64,000 nucleotides of DNA from Actinomycetales bacterium (GTDB taxonomy: Bacteria > Actinomycetota > Actinomycetes > Actinomycetales > Cellulomonadaceae). The notes under the pieces are model-generated. The model saw only the letters and a program-made list of their open reading frames with translations. It was not told the DNA's origin and searched no databases. Shown piece by piece: positions 51,994 through 59,054 of this stretch; within the stretch, counting starts at the first letter, position 1; each line of letters begins with the position of its first letter. The stretch spans positions 62,001 through 126,000 of the forward strand of contig JAHLLI010000014.1 of assembly GCA_020444245.1 (NCBI GenBank), read 5' to 3'. The translations under genes were made by a program, and so were the position numbers.

Positions 51994-52024
51994 CGGACCT
52001 ACGCCGTCGCGGCGCCGCGACTCG

Positions 52025-52057
52025 GACGCCCGGTCCCCTCACGGGGGGCCGGGCGTC
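52025..52057 (+). terminator. Terminator hairpin after sodA
   Basis: GACGCCCGGTCCCC (52025-52038) pairs with GGGGGGCCGGGCGTC (52043-52057) around a 4-base loop, with one G-T pair. 32 bp after the sodA stop; the strongest hairpin in this part of the window. Confidence 0.75.
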
Positions 52058-52370
52058 GCTGCGTCTCGGGGTGACCTGCCGCACCGCTGGTCAGGGTCCC
52101 TGGGGTGGGCGCCTGGAGCTGGAAGCGCACACAACGCGCGTCGGCGTAGAACCGGATGCGCGCACTCGGCAGGCGCGCGGGCGGCGGCGTGGGACCGCAC
52201 GGTCCTGGCATGCTGACTGCGACCGCGCCATCGAGTTCCTGGCTCACCGGCCGGTTCACCTGCCCTTGGCCGTCCTCAGGCGCTTCGTCGAGGTAGCCGT
52301 GAGCACCCCGCCGCCGACGACCTAGGACGTCCGCCGCGTCTCGTCCGCGTGTGAACCGCGCGGCTCGCGC
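52058..52370. other. Intergenic stretch without a recognisable gene
   Basis: 313 bp between the sodA terminator and the repeat copy at 52371. Open frames are shadows with no family features. I see no promoter or RNA structure I can support. Confidence 0.4.
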
Positions 52371-52408
52371 CATGAGCGGCACGCTGTGCCGCCGTGCATT
52401 CCAGCGGC
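52371..52408 (+). repeat. Dispersed palindromic repeat, copy R7, at the IS left edge
   Basis: CATGAGCGGCACGCTGTGCC, then GCCGTGCATTCCAGCGGC: matches R3/R4 with a two-base deletion and several changes. The copy ends at CAGCGGC, exactly where the IS21 element begins at 52409; the last four bases, CGGC, are duplicated after the element. Confidence 0.65.
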
Positions 52409-52460
52409 TGTCGCCGACGCCTGAAGACTGACCGGGGATCGACGGCTGAAATCTGACCAG
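52409..52460 (+). repeat. Left terminal inverted repeat of the IS21 element
   Basis: Contains two 18-bp transposase-site repeats, GACGCCTGAAGACTGACC (52416-52433) and GACGGCTGAAATCTGACC (52441-52458), 25 bp apart. The right end (54508-54559) has the same pair inverted at 54510-54527 and 54535-54552, also 25 bp apart. Confidence 0.85.
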
Positions 52461-52490
52461 CCTGCCGCGATCCTGCGGAGGGTGATCGGT

Positions 52491-53705
52491 GTGGAGGACT
52501 GGGCAGAGGTCCGTCGGCTGCGTCGCGTCGAGGGGATGGCGATCTCGGCGATCGCGCGTGAGCTCGGGATCGCGCGGAACACGGTGAAGAAGGCGCTGGC
52601 CAGTGACCGGCCGCCGAAGTACGAGCGCCCGGCGAAGGGGTCGCTGGTCGACGCGGTCGAGCCGCGGGTCCGCGTGCTGCTGGCCGACTGTCCGACGATG
52701 CCGGCGACGGTGATCGCCCAGCGCATCGGGTGGGATCGCTCGTTGACGATCCTCAAGGACCGGGTGCGGGTGCTGCGTCCGTACTACCTGCCGCCGGACC
52801 CGGCGAGCCGCACCAGCTACGAACCGGGGCACCGGTTGCAGTGCGACCTGTGGTTCCCGCCGGTCGACGTCCCGCTCGGCGCCGGGCAGGTCGGGTCGCC
52901 GCCGGTGCTGGTGATGGTCTCGGGCTACTCGCGGATGATGTTCGCGCTGATGCTGCCCTCGCGGCAGGCGCCGGATCTGATCGCCGGGCACTGGGCGCTG
53001 TTGACCTCGATGGGTGCGGTTGCCCGGGAGCTGGTTTGGGACAACGAGTCCGCGGTCGGGTCCTGGCGGGCCGGCAAGCCGAAGCTGACCGACGACTTCG
53101 AGGCGTTCCGCGGCACGCTCGGGATCGGGGTCCATCAGTGCCGTCCGCGTGACCCGGAGGCCAAGGGCCTGGTCGAGCGGGCGAACGGCTACCTGGAGAC
53201 CTCGTTCCTGCCGGGGCGCGCGTTCACCGGTCCGGACGACTTCAACACCCAGCTCGCCGAGTGGCTGCCCGTCGCGAACCGTCGTCAGCACCGCGCGCTG
53301 GGTTGCCGGCCGCTGGACCGGTGGGCGGCGGATCGGGACGCGATGCTCACTCTGCCGCCGGTCGCCCCGCAGCTCGGATGGCGGGCGAGGGTCCGGCTCC
53401 CGCGCGACCACTACGTGCGCGTCGACACCAACGACTACTCGGTGGACCCGGTCGCGGTCGGCCGGTTCGTCGAGGTCGTCGCCGACCTCGAGCACGTCAC
53501 GGTGCGCCTGGGGGCCAAGATCGTCGCCGTCCACGCCCGGTGCTGGGCGCGCTGGCAGACGATCACCGACCCCGCCCACAAGGCCGCCGCCCTGGCGCTG
53601 TCCCACGCCGCCGCGCACCTCCCTGCAACGCCTCCGGCGGACGAGGTCGAGCAGCGCGACCTCGCTGCTTACGACGCCGCGTTCGGCCTGACCGAGGTCG
53701 CCTGA
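52491..53705 (+). CDS. istA: IS21-family transposase IstA
   Basis: 404 residues. N-terminal HTH (WAEVRRLRRVEGMAISAIAR, ELGIARNTVKKALAS), an rve integrase core with DDE residues at Asp119 (LQCDLWFPPVD), Asp184 (LVWDNESAVG) and Glu229 (KGLVERANGYLE), and a C-terminal beta domain (YVRVDTNDYSVDPVAVGRFV). GTG 52491 is eight bases after GGAGGG; GTG 52482 would lie inside that site. Overlaps istB by one base (TGATG). Confidence 0.93.
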   Translation: MEDWAEVRRLRRVEGMAISAIARELGIARNTVKKALASDRPPKYERPAKGSLVDAVEPRVRVLLADCPTMPATVIAQRIGWDRSLTILKDRVRVLRPYYLPPDPASRTSYEPGHRLQCDLWFPPVDVPLGAGQVGSPPVLVMVSGYSRMMFALMLPSRQAPDLIAGHWALLTSMGAVARELVWDNESAVGSWRAGKPKLTDDFEAFRGTLGIGVHQCRPRDPEAKGLVERANGYLETSFLPGRAFTGPDDFNTQLAEWLPVANRRQHRALGCRPLDRWAADRDAMLTLPPVAPQLGWRARVRLPRDHYVRVDTNDYSVDPVAVGRFVEVVADLEHVTVRLGAKIVAVHARCWARWQTITDPAHKAAALALSHAAAHLPATPPADEVEQRDLAAYDAAFGLTEVA

Positions 53706-54493
53706 TGGCCCCGGCGAAGACGACGGTCCGGGACGTGACCAGCGAGCTCGCCTACCTGACCCGCGCGCTGAAGGCCCCCACGTTGCGCGACGCGGTCGAG
53801 CGGCTCGCCGAACGGGCGCGGGCGGAGGCCTGGACCCACGAGGAGTTCCTCGCGGCCTGCCTCCAGCGCGAGGTCGCCGCCCGGGAGACCCACGGCGGGG
53901 AAGGACGCATCCGCGCCGCCCGGTTCCCCGCCCGCAAGTCGCTTGAGGACTTCGACTTCGAGCACGCCCGAGGCCTGGCCCGCGACCAGATCGCCCACCT
54001 CGGCACCCTGGACTTTGTCGCGGCCCGGGAGAACGTGGTGTTCCTCGGCCCGCCGGGCACCGGCAAGACCCACCTCGCCACCGGGATCGCGGTTCGCGCC
54101 TGCCAAGCCGGCCACCGCACCCTGTTCGCGACCGCGTCCGAATGGGTCGACCGGCTCGCGACCGCGCACCACGACGGGCGCCTGCAAGACGAGCTGCGCC
54201 GCCTGGGCCGCTATCCGCTGCTCGTGATCGACGAGGTCGGCTACATCCCGTTCGAGCCCGAGGCCGCGAACCTGTTCTTCCAGCTCGTCTCGGCCCGCTA
54301 CGAACGCGCGTCGCTGATCGTCACCTCGAACAAGCCGTTCGGACGCTGGGGCGAGGTCTTCGGCGACGACACCGTCGCCGCAGCGATGATCGACCGCCTC
54401 GTCCACCACGCCGACGTCATCGCTCTCAAAGGCGACTCCTACCGACTCAAGAACCGCGACCTCGGCCGCCCACCCGCGGCCACCACGGACTGA
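53705..54493 (+). CDS. istB: IS21-family ATPase IstB
   Basis: 262-residue AAA+ helper protein, related to DnaC, that directs IstA to target DNA. Walker A FLGPPGTGKTHLATG (about 115-129), Walker B PLLVIDEVGYIPFEPE, sensor LIVTSNKPFGRWGEVFGDD, Arg finger AAMIDRLVHHADVI. About 260 residues is full length. Start ATG 53705. Confidence 0.95.
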   Translation: MAPAKTTVRDVTSELAYLTRALKAPTLRDAVERLAERARAEAWTHEEFLAACLQREVAARETHGGEGRIRAARFPARKSLEDFDFEHARGLARDQIAHLGTLDFVAARENVVFLGPPGTGKTHLATGIAVRACQAGHRTLFATASEWVDRLATAHHDGRLQDELRRLGRYPLLVIDEVGYIPFEPEAANLFFQLVSARYERASLIVTSNKPFGRWGEVFGDDTVAAAMIDRLVHHADVIALKGDSYRLKNRDLGRPPAATTD

Positions 54494-54611
54494 AGACAAC
54501 CAGGCAGCTGGTCAGTCTTCAGCCGTCGATCCCTGATCAGGATTCAGCCGTCGTTGACACGGCCAGCACCAGGCGAGAGTCACCTCCCTCAACCCGGCGG
54601 TGGCGGTCTCT

Positions 54612-55568
54612 TCAGACCCATTCCAGGCCCAGCTCGGTGACCCGGCGGGTGATGGTCTCGCTGCGCTGTCGACGGCTCACAGGCTCGGGGCGATAGGCCA
54701 GGCTCACCCGTCGCTTGCCCAGCATCGGCCAGCCGCCGTCCGTGAGTCTCCATGACCGAATCAGTTCGACGGCTTCGGTCATCGCGTTCACCGGAACGTC
54801 GATGTCCACCGCCAGTTGCGCCAGTTCGACAAGGTCGATCACGTAGTCGAGTGGAAACGCCGGGAGCACCCACCTCGTGCCCTCGGGGTCGGTCTTGGTC
54901 CGGCCCGCCAAGGGCATGATCGCGCCGGATCTGCCGAACATGACCCGCCTGTCGATCAACAGGCTACGCATCGCGGCCACGTGAGCGTCAGCGGCGATCG
55001 CCAGGCCGGCCCTTCGAGCGGCCGCAAGGGCCGAGACCGCTGGGACAAGGCCCAGAAGGCAGGTGGTCGCAGCCATGCAACCGCCGTAGCGCGTACGCAG
55101 GTAGTCGCCCCACAGCGGGCCCACGGGCTCGTGGTACACGACTCCGCCATACACGACCGGCTGGTACCGAACGATCCACTGCAGCAATGGCATGGCGGCT
55201 TCGCCGCGGCCCGCACGCACCAACAAGCGGGCGATCATGCCCGTGTAGCACGGCACCACCGAGTCGCGAGTTCCATAGATCGAACCGCCACCGTCAACTA
55301 CCGCGTGTCGGGAAAGGAAGTCGAGCGCCCGCGACAGGCACGGTTCGTCGTCCAGTCCAGCTTCCTGCACCGAACGCGCCGCGAAGATCGTCGGCACGAT
55401 CCGTCCTGGCGCCGTGGCTTGCTTCCCCCACGAACCGTCCTCGCGCTGTCCGCTGGCGAGCCACTCAAGCGCCGCAACCGGTGAACCGCCGCTCATCTTC
55501 CCCTGACCCTCGAGTGCCGGGGCCGCACATCGATCATGCGCGCCGACTACCTCCATCATTCCAGTCAT
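54612..55568 (-). CDS. Alpha/alpha-toroid protein of the prenyltransferase/squalene cyclase repeat type
   Basis: 318 residues from ATG 55568; ATG 55496 (MSGGSPVAALEWL) with AGGGGAAG upstream is an alternative that keeps the whole domain. QW-like repeats are visible: AALEWLASGQREDGSWGKQ, RALDFLSRHAVVDGGGSIYG and IRSWRLTDGGWPMLG, with CYTGMIARLLVRAG and MAATTCLLGLVPAVSAL helices between. These belong to the toroid fold of squalene cyclases and protein prenyltransferases, but no DxDD acid motif or zinc triad is evident, so it may be a noncatalytic or unknown enzyme. It lies 52 bp from the IS right end. Confidence 0.65.
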   Translation of the reverse strand: MTGMMEVVGAHDRCAAPALEGQGKMSGGSPVAALEWLASGQREDGSWGKQATAPGRIVPTIFAARSVQEAGLDDEPCLSRALDFLSRHAVVDGGGSIYGTRDSVVPCYTGMIARLLVRAGRGEAAMPLLQWIVRYQPVVYGGVVYHEPVGPLWGDYLRTRYGGCMAATTCLLGLVPAVSALAAARRAGLAIAADAHVAAMRSLLIDRRVMFGRSGAIMPLAGRTKTDPEGTRWVLPAFPLDYVIDLVELAQLAVDIDVPVNAMTEAVELIRSWRLTDGGWPMLGKRRVSLAYRPEPVSRRQRSETITRRVTELGLEWV

Positions 55569-55987
55569 CGTGGGGACCCTCTCGGGCGAGCCATGGCAGC
55601 CGCCGGGCGCACGCTCATCGGCTACCGTGCGTGAGCAGCCGGCACGGTCCAGGTGACGGGAGTGGTGGACGGGGCTGGTGGCGTGGCACGGCCGTCCGTC
55701 ACGCGAACCGCGTGGGCCGCTCACTGGTCGCCGTCGGCGGTCGTGCGGGCAGCGGCCGACGCGGCGGGGCGTGTCGGCCGCCCCGATGGGCGTCCGGAGG
55801 GTGGACGGCCCCGCACGGATCGGCGCCTGAGTGCCGGTTCGCCGCGTGGCGTGCCGGGAGTCGCCTGCGACGGCGCCTCACCTCGTGCACACGGGCACGG
55901 CGGCGGCAGCCCCTCACCACGCCTCGACCGAGGGTCGCGCGGAGGGCCCGACTCAGCGGATCACACCTCGCAGTCGCCTCAGGCGGG
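55569..55987. other. Intergenic stretch without a recognisable gene
   Basis: 419 bp between the toroid gene start and the kinase-phosphorylase stop. An open frame 55653-56192 on the plus strand runs into the antisense of the fusion gene and has no family features. The region should hold the toroid gene's promoter, but I cannot point to one. Confidence 0.4.
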
Positions 55988-58579
55988 TCAGATCTCGCGA
56001 GTGCCGGATGCGTCAGTCGCGGTGACGGTGAACGTCTCCGAAACCAGGTCGGCGTCCAGGACTGCGTGGGTGTCGCCCTTCGACCAGGTGATCCGCAGCC
56101 GGCCCGGTTCGGTGTCAGCCACCTCGCAGGCCGCGTCGAAGCCGAACGCACCGAAGGTCGCCCGGAAGCGCAGCAGCTCGATCTGGCGCTGAACCACGGG
56201 GCGGAGCAGGCCCGCCTCGACGTCGGCGGCCGTCAGGTTGGTGCGGTTGATCTCCTTGTGGCCGCCAGGCCCCGCCTTGGCCACGGCGTCGTGGTCGTTG
56301 GTTCCCGCGAACAGGTCGAGGTACCACACCTGCGGCTTGCCGGGCATGAACAGATGGATCGCACGGGCCAGGAGCATCCTCGCGTCGGACTCCCCCAGCG
56401 CCGAGTAGAACGTCGCGTTGACCTGGTAGTAGACGTTCTTCGCGCCGTGCAGGTCCTTGACGTACCCGCCCCGGCCCTTGACCGTCTCGATGAGGCCCTC
56501 GATGCGCTCGTCGGCGAGCAGGCCCTTGAGGTCGAGCAGCGGGATGCCGTCGTGGCACCCGAGCATCGTCACCGTGCGGATGCCCTTGTCGAGCACCTCG
56601 CCGATCCAACGCTTGAGCACGGTGGCGTCGTGCCGCTCGAACGCGTCGATCACCAGGCCGGGCAGGAAGAAGTCGTAGGTCATGAAGCCCTGGGCCGCGA
56701 TGGTCTCGTGGATCCGCTCGGCGTAGGTGGAGTGGATCTCCGGCAGCAGCAACAGGCCGCGTGCGTCCGCGAGCTCCTTGACGCGGGCCAGCAGGTCCCA
56801 CGTTCCGGGGTCGTTGAGGAAGTTGCGCGCGCCCGGCTCCTTGGGCGCGTAGGCGAACGCGTCCAGCCGCACGATCGCCGCGCCGTACCCGGCCAGCGTG
56901 TCGAGGGTGTGAGCGTAGAAGTCCCAGACCAGGTCGGACTTGATGTTCAGGTCCATCTGGCCCAGGTACCGCCGCCGGGACTCGACCCGGTCGACCACGG
57001 CGTCGCGCACGTCCTCGAAGCCGGAGGCGTCCACGTCCCCCGGGCGGCCGCCGGTCGCCAACGTCGCCGCGAGCCGCTCGGCGAGCACCGCGGCCCGCCC
57101 GTACTGGATGCCGGTCGCCGCCATCAGGTCCTGGGCGTCCGGGGCGGTGTAGCGGACCTCCTGGTAGAAGGTGTTCCAGTACGGCTTCTCGGTCCCGTCG
57201 GGCATGCGGACCATGAGGATCGGCAGGCCCTCCTTGCGGAAGAACATGTCCTTGATGAGGTCGGGGTCGGGCTGGACGTACCCCTCGGGCGTCAGCTCGC
57301 CGTGCCCGGCCCAGAAGGCGTTCCAGTCGATGAAGAAGTCGGCGTAGGGCGACTCCTGACCGCGGGCGAGCAGGTCCTGGAACTGCGGGGACAGCACCGA
57401 GGCGTGGTTGAGGATGAAGTCCAGCTTGAGGTTGATGCCGGCGTCGGCCAGCGCGTCGAGGTCGGCGCGCGTCGCATACAGGTCGCTCAGCTGGTAGTCG
57501 ATCACCGAGAACCCTCGGTCCAGGTCGGTGTTGAAGACACTCGGCAGCAGGTAGGCCGAGGTGAACGCGCCACGCGTCTCGGGGCGCCGCAGGAAGGCCA
57601 CGACGTCGGCAAGGGTGCCGCCGACGGAGTCCGGGTACACGTTGAGCATCGGACCGGTGTCCGGCCCGCCCATCGCGTCGAGGTAGGTCGCGTAGTCCTG
57701 CACCTGACCCGACTTGGCGACGATGATCGCCGCCCGGTGGGCACGCGCGTGCAGCTTCTCCTGCTCGATACCGAGCACCATCGTGGTGAACGGGCTGTCC
57801 ACGGCGCCGTCGCGGTTGCGCGAGCGCCGGTGCGCGAGGGTCTCCTCCGGGGTCGAGTTGAGCAGGATCGGGACGTCGACCCCGGTCAGGTGCTCGCTGT
57901 TGCCGTGGGTCCACTCCAGGACGATCACCTGGACGCCGCGCAGGTCCACGTCGTCGTACCAGAGCTCGCCCTCGGCCCGGCCCATCCGCTTGAGCAGCAG
58001 GTGCGGCGCCCCGTCGTGGAACGCGGCGAGGATCGCGTTCAGCTCGTCGAAGGCGATCTCCGCGGGGCCGCCGAGGTAGGTCGCCAGGGCGGCGCGACCC
58101 GCGTCCAGGTACGTGCGCAGCCACGGGTGCTCCGCGACCGCCGCCGGGTCCGCGTCCCGACCCGTCGCCTGCAGCTCCTCCAGCGCCGGACGCACCTCGG
58201 GGTCGTAGAGCCCGGCATCCACCAGACCCCGCACCGCTGCGGACCGGAACACCCGCAGGCGCTCGGCGTCGTTCGCAGAAGGCACCCGACGCGGGTAGTT
58301 GTCGCCGGAGAGCACGTATGCACCGATGCCCAGCCGGTTGAGCCCGTAGGCGAGCAGCGAGCCGACCTCGGACTTGCCGACCCCGGACCCGCCGTGGACG
58401 CTGACGACGGCCCGGTGGTGCGGGCTCGCCGCGAGCACCGCCTCGAGCCGGTCCCAGAGCACCGGGAACACGCTCCGCGCCTTCGCGACGTGGGTCTGGC
58501 TGATCTGGACCCGGTCACCGGGCATGTCACCGGTCGGGATCTCGGCGAGGTCGCCGACCTCCGGGAACGTGGCGGCCAT
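55988..58579 (-). CDS. Fusion of P-loop kinase and GH13 sucrose-phosphorylase-like enzyme
   Basis: 863 residues, two enzymes in one chain. Residues about 50-300 are a P-loop kinase of the uridine kinase/phosphoribulokinase type: Walker A HGGSGVGKS (62-70), LSGDNYPRR (90-98), VQVIVLEWTHGN (217-227). Residues about 308-860 are a GH13 enzyme closest to subfamily 18 (sucrose, glucosylglycerate and similar phosphorylases): MLNVYPDSVGG, nucleophile Asp573 in IVRLDAFAYAPK, acid/base Glu614 in LLPEIHST, Asp677 in GCHDGIPLLDL. Catalytic residues of both are kept. Likely reaction: phosphorolysis of a glucoside to glucose-1-phosphate with phosphorylation of a product or substrate; the specific sugar is unknown. 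A LacI-type operator lies 49 bp upstream. Confidence 0.88.
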   Translation of the reverse strand: MAATFPEVGDLAEIPTGDMPGDRVQISQTHVAKARSVFPVLWDRLEAVLAASPHHRAVVSVHGGSGVGKSEVGSLLAYGLNRLGIGAYVLSGDNYPRRVPSANDAERLRVFRSAAVRGLVDAGLYDPEVRPALEELQATGRDADPAAVAEHPWLRTYLDAGRAALATYLGGPAEIAFDELNAILAAFHDGAPHLLLKRMGRAEGELWYDDVDLRGVQVIVLEWTHGNSEHLTGVDVPILLNSTPEETLAHRRSRNRDGAVDSPFTTMVLGIEQEKLHARAHRAAIIVAKSGQVQDYATYLDAMGGPDTGPMLNVYPDSVGGTLADVVAFLRRPETRGAFTSAYLLPSVFNTDLDRGFSVIDYQLSDLYATRADLDALADAGINLKLDFILNHASVLSPQFQDLLARGQESPYADFFIDWNAFWAGHGELTPEGYVQPDPDLIKDMFFRKEGLPILMVRMPDGTEKPYWNTFYQEVRYTAPDAQDLMAATGIQYGRAAVLAERLAATLATGGRPGDVDASGFEDVRDAVVDRVESRRRYLGQMDLNIKSDLVWDFYAHTLDTLAGYGAAIVRLDAFAYAPKEPGARNFLNDPGTWDLLARVKELADARGLLLLPEIHSTYAERIHETIAAQGFMTYDFFLPGLVIDAFERHDATVLKRWIGEVLDKGIRTVTMLGCHDGIPLLDLKGLLADERIEGLIETVKGRGGYVKDLHGAKNVYYQVNATFYSALGESDARMLLARAIHLFMPGKPQVWYLDLFAGTNDHDAVAKAGPGGHKEINRTNLTAADVEAGLLRPVVQRQIELLRFRATFGAFGFDAACEVADTEPGRLRITWSKGDTHAVLDADLVSETFTVTATDASGTREI

Positions 58580-58627
58580 GGTGGTCTCCCTTGACGACGA
58601 AGCTCCTGCCCTCAGATCCTAGGCCGG

Positions 58628-58643
58628 ATGTAAGCGCATACAT
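58628..58643 (-). promoter_or_regulatory. LacI/GalR-type operator
   Basis: ATGTAAGCGCATACAT has perfect 5-base arms (ATGTA/TACAT) around a CG centre and fits the LacI-family pattern TGNAANCGNTNNCA except one position. It stands out from its GC-rich surroundings and lies 49 bp before the fusion gene ATG. No LacI gene is in the window, so the regulator would act from elsewhere. Confidence 0.6.
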
Positions 58644-58673
58644 AGCCCGCGCGCAATCTGGTCGACGATGCGG

Positions 58674-59054
58674 CTAGACCGGTGTTCCCTGGTGGTAGAC
58701 GACGCGCCACCGCGCACCCACGCGCTCCCAGATGGAGACCCGGCGGCTGCGTCGCCCACCGAACAGCAGGTCGTACGTCAGCACCCAGACGCGCGGGGCC
58801 AGGCGCCGCACGGCGGCCTGCGTCAGCTCGAACGCCGGCTCGGGCTCGCCCGACGCGAAACGCTCGGCCAGGACGGCCCAGATGACCTCGCGGTCGTAGC
58901 GACGGCCCGAGGCACCGACCTCGGCGAAGTCCGGAGCCGTGAGCGCCTCGTACTCCGCACGCGTCATCCCGCCGGGGGCGTGGAAGAGCGGCTCCAGCGA
59001 GGTGAGCTCGGCCAGGACGGAGTCCTCGTCGAGCCGCCCGTCGGTGTCGGGCAC
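58674..59054 (-). CDS. NTF2-like DUF4440 protein
   Basis: 126-residue cone-shaped NTF2/SnoaL-fold protein, DUF4440 family (SVLAELTSLEPLFHAPGGMT, ALTAPDFAEVGASGRRYDRE, then VSIWERVGARWRVVYHQGTP at the end). The family is widespread with varied or unknown roles. GTG 59054 lies 7 bp beyond the ctaF stop, so it may be transcribed with the oxidase operon. Confidence 0.82.
   Translation of the reverse strand: MPDTDGRLDEDSVLAELTSLEPLFHAPGGMTRAEYEALTAPDFAEVGASGRRYDREVIWAVLAERFASGEPEPAFELTQAAVRRLAPRVWVLTYDLLFGGRRSRRVSIWERVGARWRVVYHQGTPV

Follow-up and report, generated by a model that had tools for sequence, protein, structure and literature searches.

Which reaction is carried out by a protein that joins a kinase to a sugar phosphorylase, and which of its two halves acts first? 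This question is raised by a gene in a stretch of 64,000 nucleotides from an Actinomycetales bacterium of the Cellulomonadaceae (assembly GCA_020444245.1, contig JAHLLI010000014.1, positions 62,001 to 126,000), which as a whole is here called the window. The gene encodes an N-terminal P-loop kinase (residues about 1-302) followed by a complete phosphorylase of subfamily GH13_18 (residues about 305-863). Comparison of both halves with their relatives points to a bifunctional sucrose-catabolic enzyme, a sucrose 6F-kinase joined to a sucrose 6F-phosphate phosphorylase (SPP), and we consider this reading quite probable. Published work is cited by PubMed Central (PMC) number.

The kinase half and the phosphorylase half

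The reading frame runs over 863 codons, from 58579 down to 55988, with zero internal stops. Its GC content at third codon positions is 0.95, and a Shine-Dalgarno-like GGGAG (58586-58590) lies six bases ahead of the ATG. The first-pass annotation had described a single 863-residue chain of a kinase and a complete GH13 enzyme, and the frame is indeed intact and free of stops between the domains. Kinase and GH13_18 fill the chain, and no GH36 match was found in Pfam or NCBIfam; in NCBIfam, which was checked with the window protein only, the best match was a sucrose phosphorylase model. Two characterised proteins serve as references for the features listed here, AgaSK of Ruminococcus gnavus and the crystallised SPP of Ilumatobacter coccineus (IcSPP, 6s9u).

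55988..58579, minus strand: fused kinase-GH13_18 gene, 863 residues, intact open reading frame with the stop inside the coordinates
57674..58579, minus strand: kinase domain, residues about 1-302, homologous to the AgaSK sucrose-kinase domain (sequence comparison and predicted fold)
58370..58393, minus strand: Walker A motif GGSGVGKS, residues 63-70 (kinase alignment)
58061..58258, minus strand: residues 108-173, the insert that marks the long kinases (kinase alignment and predicted helices)
55991..57667, minus strand: GH13_18 phosphorylase domain of predicted SPP type, residues about 305-863
57236..57238, minus strand: R448, equivalent to IcSPP Arg152, phosphate contact (role from PMC6720575)
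56963..57157, minus strand: residues 475-539, with an insert of about 54 residues following YWNTFYQ at the end of domain B (SPP alignment)
56861..56863, minus strand: D573, GH13 catalytic nucleophile (91/91 SPP rows)
56738..56740, minus strand: E614, GH13 acid/base (90/91 SPP rows, one gap)
56549..56551, minus strand: D677, GH13 transition-state Asp (91/91 SPP rows)
56456..56458, minus strand: K708, equivalent to IcSPP Lys364, phosphate contact (role from PMC6720575)
56423..56440, minus strand: loop A KNVYYQ, residues 714-719, with the strict-SPP signature KXXYYQ (motif from PMC7178133)
56255..56257, minus strand: K775, equivalent to IcSPP Lys434, phosphate contact (role from PMC6720575)

The kinase half was modelled separately, because the list of fold matches of the full-length protein barely covered it. 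The model predicts the fold of the uridine kinase/phosphoribulokinase/pantothenate kinase P-loop superfamily, in agreement with the assignment made earlier, and G63, S65, G66, G68 and K69 were invariant in the aligned kinases (55/55). By sequence the half is homologous to the AgaSK-type sucrose-kinase domain, sharing 38% identity over 255 columns (E 1e-57 for one pairwise comparison) with that of the AgaSK orthologue at locus L164. Residues 8-727 of the L164 reading frame match AgaSK itself (2yfn) with 1638 bits, the kinase being its C-terminal domain. The similarity of the kinase profile to the solved D-glycerate 3-kinase is confined to the surroundings of the P-loop, and in the fold comparison this enzyme ranks amid other members of the superfamily without standing out. 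Glycerate, the acceptor towards which the first-pass annotation leaned, is probably wrong. A long insert, of 66 residues in the window protein and modelled as confident helices, is present in 41 of the 55 kinases, as compared to 10, 11 or 20 residues in the short ones.

In fold alignments the GH13 half is 51-56% identical to IcSPP, as compared to 24-36% for the solved sucrose, glucosylglycerol and Thermoanaerobacterium thermosaccharolyticum SPP (TtSPP) phosphorylases, and it is 60-63% identical to the SPP adjoining an AgaSK orthologue. The alignments used for folding (A3, 93 rows; A4, 55 rows) were hand-chosen for spread from 19 fused, 56 kinase and 61 SPP stretches, together with rows from extra genomes. 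Trees were computed in quick mode with Shimodaira-Hasegawa-like approximate likelihood ratio (SH-aLRT) support alone, and the SPP tree carries a long-branch warning. This tree splits 91 SPP rows, including IcSPP, from an outgroup of six sucrose-phosphorylase-like rows, hand-picked from 17 such loci (L012-L028), with an SH-aLRT of 100. The GH13_18 placement of the first-pass annotation is thus upheld by phylogeny and predicted fold, and so is its choice of Asp573, Glu614 and Asp677 as the catalytic triad, which is near-invariant across the 91 rows.

Loop A narrows the assignment further. The sucrose phosphorylase (EC 2.4.1.7) motif N(L/V)D(I/L/V)YQ, found as NLDLYQ or NVDLYQ in 6/6 outgroup rows, is replaced by KNVYYQ in the window protein. 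Glucosylglycerate phosphorylases have Glu in place of the loop A Gln and glucosylglycerol phosphorylases have VGA in this loop (PMC6720575); the window protein has Q719 and KNVYYQ. The phosphate of the substrate is contacted in IcSPP by Arg152, Lys364 and Lys434 plus Tyr377 and Gln378 (PMC6720575), and Y718 and Q719 match the last two. In fact, R448, K708, Y717, Y718, Q719 and K775 are present in 91/91 SPP rows, and the six outgroup rows carry P and R at the R448 and K708 columns. By sequence, therefore, the GH13 half groups with the strict SPPs.

The region of residues 475-539 is 64-73 residues long in 83/91 SPP rows and 8-13 in the remaining 8. The insert of about 54 residues that it holds, modelled as confident helices in the window protein, is lacking in both IcSPP and the RgSPP-like protein of L164 (RgSPP being the SPP of R. 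gnavus). A strict co-evolution of this insert with that of the kinase was considered and rejected: a long SPP goes with a short kinase in L076, L106, L109, L122 and L138, and the reverse pairing is found in L168.

Pairing across genomes and the fusion clade

A genome scan with ten SPP sequences, one genome per species, gave 510 confirmed stretches, of which 80 were kept as named loci. The kinase is fused to the SPP in 19 of the 80, is a separate gene of the same strand immediately ahead of the SPP in 57, and was not found in 4, of which L121 and L123 begin at a contig edge. The kinase of L088, clipped by a contig edge to 112 residues, is included in this count and left out of that of the SPP tree. 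In 53 of the 57 separate pairs (the other 4 lack a Met) the distance from the kinase stop to the nearest ATG has a median of 16 bases and is <=60 in 37/53, figures that are rough, the starts being guessed. According to the record titles, the fused rows come from Actinomycetota and the separate genes from Bacillota, Bacteroidota, Alphaproteobacteria and one Actinomycetales record. In L090, besides the kinase-SPP pair of that locus, a second, divergent SPP-like reading frame (L090:3303-4799, E 1e-92) adjoins a carboxylesterase gene.

An spp gene placed behind a kinase gene had been recorded before in R. gnavus and three other Clostridia (PMC6521584). The same holds for the crystallised enzyme: the IcSPP gene is that of L056 (523/523 residues identical to 6s9u), and its start overlaps the end of a 217-residue kinase gene (L056:9501-10151), with LacI and ATP-binding cassette (ABC) sugar-import genes nearby. 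In the partial text of the IcSPP paper the word kinase occurs once, in the introduction, and the overlapping gene goes unmentioned (PMC6720575).

The fused rows are monophyletic both in the SPP tree (21/21, SH-aLRT 100) and in the kinase tree (SH-aLRT 98). Since 20 further fused reading frames share this clade with the window protein, a frameshift or assembly artefact is ruled out, and a single fusion event is the simplest account of all fused rows. Within the clade the window protein is closest to that of L066 (78%), which is a Propionibacteriaceae record. Kinase and SPP genes that are less similar (58-65%) are carried by the same-genus genomes G151, where they are separate and overlapping, and G143, where they lie at contig ends and fused and separate states are indistinguishable. 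Two further fused genes, L079 and L081, are near-identical and labelled Corynebacterium sp. and uncultured Propioniciclava sp.; one of these metagenome-assembled genome labels is probably wrong.

The kinase is rare, being found in 5/396 genomes of the order and 12/396 of the phylum, with the window counted in both. In the other 15 kinase genomes it is fused to SPP in four (G208, G877, G728, G886), adjoins SPP in four (G480, G670, G733, G802), adjoins a different protein, c11, in five (G210, G227, G665, G894, G903), and was not placed in G857 and G778. G877, G728, G886 and G480 are apparently the same records as L068, L072, L069 and L135, and are not independent of the named loci. In five Actinomycetota genomes a gene of the c11 family (about 700 residues) begins within the last bases of a short gene resembling the sucrose kinases:

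L058:9723-11828: c11 member
L059:2508-3773: c11 member
L061:10353-12449: c11 member
L063:50-2116, minus strand: c11 member, start chosen by hand
L064:10122-12188: c11 member, start chosen by hand

No confident match to c11 was found in Pfam, NCBIfam (one member tried) or the PDB, and comparison of a 702-residue member with SPP/GH13 profiles gave nothing. By eye, GH13-like motifs are seen (DVVPHTDR, FDFMRGDMAHV, GEE, MTADKDD).

Reaction order and the position of the phosphate

In the pathway that we propose, the N-terminal AgaSK-type kinase would convert cytosolic sucrose and ATP to sucrose 6F-phosphate (fructose C6) and ADP, and the GH13 half would split sucrose 6F-phosphate with phosphate into glucose-1-phosphate (Glc1P) and fructose-6-phosphate (Fru6P). 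The net reaction would be sucrose + ATP + Pi -> Glc1P + Fru6P + ADP, with no part for free fructose, a fructokinase or a phosphotransferase system (PTS). We infer sucrose as the substrate, the 6F regiochemistry and the reaction order, as well as any channelling. IcSPP and RgSPP are reported to be strict for sucrose 6F-phosphate (PMC7178133, PMC6720575, PMC6521584); of two substrates tried, sucrose and sucrose 6F-phosphate, RgSPP cleaved only the latter, and in the reverse reaction Fru6P was the sole acceptor accepted (PMC6521584). Because the characterised members of the strict clade are reported to use only a pre-phosphorylated glucoside, the kinase should act first, on sucrose. The order proposed in the first-pass annotation, in which the acceptor was phosphorylated after cleavage, is probably reversed; its broader idea of a bifunctional kinase-phosphorylase with both products able to enter glycolysis would hold.

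Several observations weigh against this reading, the most serious being the position of the phosphate. The isolated kinase domain of AgaSK phosphorylates sucrose (PMC7688924), but the product is given as sucrose 6-glucose-phosphate (PMC7688924, citing Bruel 2011), which strict SPPs should not cleave. The kinase identity to the AgaSK-type domain is just 38%, with a large gap, and inserts of 46-58 residues in both halves are absent from the AgaSK/RgSPP-like pair and from IcSPP, so that the substrate could differ. An Arg lies opposite R448 in the solved sucrose phosphorylases 7qqj and 7qqi, and a Lys opposite K708 in 7qqj (pairwise alignments); the Arg152 and Lys364 equivalents alone would not discriminate SPP from sucrose phosphorylases. 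The leading K of KXXYYQ is absent in 6/91 SPP rows, including the fused L052. Two of the 80 loci (L083, L102) carry an SPP and upstream sequence, yet no kinase. Finally, no sugar transporter adjoins the window gene, the rest of the genome not having been searched for one.

In the papers on R. gnavus, what the kinase makes (6-glucose) and what the phosphorylase uses (6-fructose) are two different compounds (PMC6521584, PMC7688924), and the origin of sucrose 6F-phosphate is left open in a review (PMC7178133). Two halves unable to pass a product on would be odd; the fusion and the pairing speak for the 6F isomer as the product of this kinase family. We lean towards the view, on the basis of the fusion and the near-universal pairing, that kinases of the AgaSK type phosphorylate sucrose at the 6F position and are where the sucrose 6F-phosphate comes from. 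The published glucose-C6 assignment would then be wrong or not general, and an ATP-dependent, PTS-free kinase-phosphorolysis pathway for sucrose would extend across Actinomycetota, Bacillota, Bacteroidota and Alphaproteobacteria, beyond a few gut Firmicutes.

The alternative that fares best keeps the kinase first and changes the substrate, either to a different hexulosyl glucoside or to sucrose supplied as an acyl ester, from which, where the genes are separate, an esterase encoded nearby would remove the acyl group. In its favour are the length-constrained insert at the end of domain B in 83/91 SPPs and the kinase insert, both of them lacking in the characterised IcSPP and in the AgaSK/RgSPP-like pair. 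Esterase-type genes occur in 13/80 named loci and in two same-genus genomes (G151, G143), in four clusters (PF07859, PF00756, PF00135 and PF00144, one representative per cluster), although this recurrence is a raw count without a background rate. Examples beside separate pairs are:

L053:188-1138: esterase-type gene
L114:6205-6996: esterase-type gene
L090:1698-3269: esterase-type gene
L090:4845-6014: esterase-type gene

However, the residues contacting Fru6P are unchanged, and in L054, L106 and L110 the pair has neighbours from a GH32 cluster (identified from one representative), in keeping with a sucrose or fructan setting. We regard a different substrate as unlikely. The esterase genes do raise the question of whether acylated sucrose is a natural substrate of the separate pairs.

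A lower probability still is given to cleavage of an unphosphorylated glucoside (e.g. sucrose or glucosylglycerate) followed by phosphorylation of the freed acceptor. This would be in line with the sucrose phosphorylase model matched in NCBIfam, but the GH13 half falls in the IcSPP clade with KXXYYQ and without the sucrose-phosphorylase motif, its loop A has Gln rather than the Glu of glucosylglycerate phosphorylase and no VGA (motif rules from PMC6720575), and the similarity to glycerate kinase is restricted to the P-loop. A mainly synthetic role, in which Glc1P and Fru6P would be joined to sucrose 6F-phosphate to serve as a solute or signal, is very improbable: SPP is reversible in vitro (PMC6521584) and no importer adjoins the window gene, but the same-chain kinase would have no obvious use in that direction and ABC importers and LacI regulators are encoded near many of the relatives with separate genes.

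The component parts are of known kinds; new here are the fusion itself, the wide spread of the pairing and the two inserts. The fusion was not found in the open-access PMC literature searched, subscription papers being mostly outside that search, and the R. gnavus type of locus has been held to be limited to a few gut species, with parts able to operate independently (PMC7688924). The fusion bears on the source of sucrose 6F-phosphate. With both predicted activities on a single natural chain, purifying one protein would be enough to test this point directly. The fusion may further aid the naming of several hundred relatives (510 confirmed stretches), and is a potential one-protein catalyst for Glc1P and Fru6P.

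Genomic setting and known systems

An accessory islet, bordered by sodA and by the gene for cytochrome c oxidase subunit IV, holds the fused gene together with an IS21 element, a DUF4440 gene and a 370-residue reading frame that has no Pfam match:

51996..59030, strand not assigned: accessory islet of about 7 kb, absent from L192 and L193
52482..54490, plus strand: IS21-type element genes, istA 52482-53702 and istB in frame 53258-54490 (PF22483/PF00665, PF01695)
58674..59054, minus strand: 126-residue DUF4440 protein, just upstream of the fused gene (PF14534)

Of 18 other same-genus genomes, L192 and L193 are closest to the window's own when judged by the gene for cytochrome c oxidase subunit IV; in them the flanks (51995-59031/59059) are separated by only about 735 and 140 bases. 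The fused gene was likely gained laterally. No GH32 invertase was found in the window's own genome. A sucrose-phosphate synthase route was also looked for there and set aside: PF05116 gave four partial above-cut-off matches (positions 136-220 of 247), taken as putative generic haloacid dehalogenase-type phosphatases.

Sucrose phosphorylase working with a fructokinase has the same net ATP cost and products as the proposed route, but it passes through free fructose and has an NLDLYQ-type loop, both unlike the window scheme. TtSPP cleaves sucrose 6F-phosphate, as predicted for the window protein, but it has a GFDVHQ loop, is promiscuous, belongs to another clade and lies in an operon with a PTS (PMC7178133). 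IcSPP and RgSPP (GH13_18, EC 2.4.1.329) have the fold, the catalytic triad, the KXXYYQ loop and the phosphate-contact residues in common with the window protein; they are stand-alone chains with a kinase gene next door, whereas the window protein carries the kinase on the same chain, and the insert of about 54 residues is missing from IcSPP and the RgSPP-like protein of L164. AgaSK, a GH36 alpha-galactosidase joined to a sucrose kinase, is likewise a fusion of a homologous kinase with a sugar enzyme, and is followed by an SPP gene. The window protein has no GH36 domain, and its kinase insert has 66 residues, as compared to 20 in the AgaSK-like protein of L164. In AgaSK the kinase is C-terminal to the enzyme of the preceding step (raffinose-family oligosaccharides to sucrose), whereas in the window protein it is N-terminal to the enzyme of the next one.
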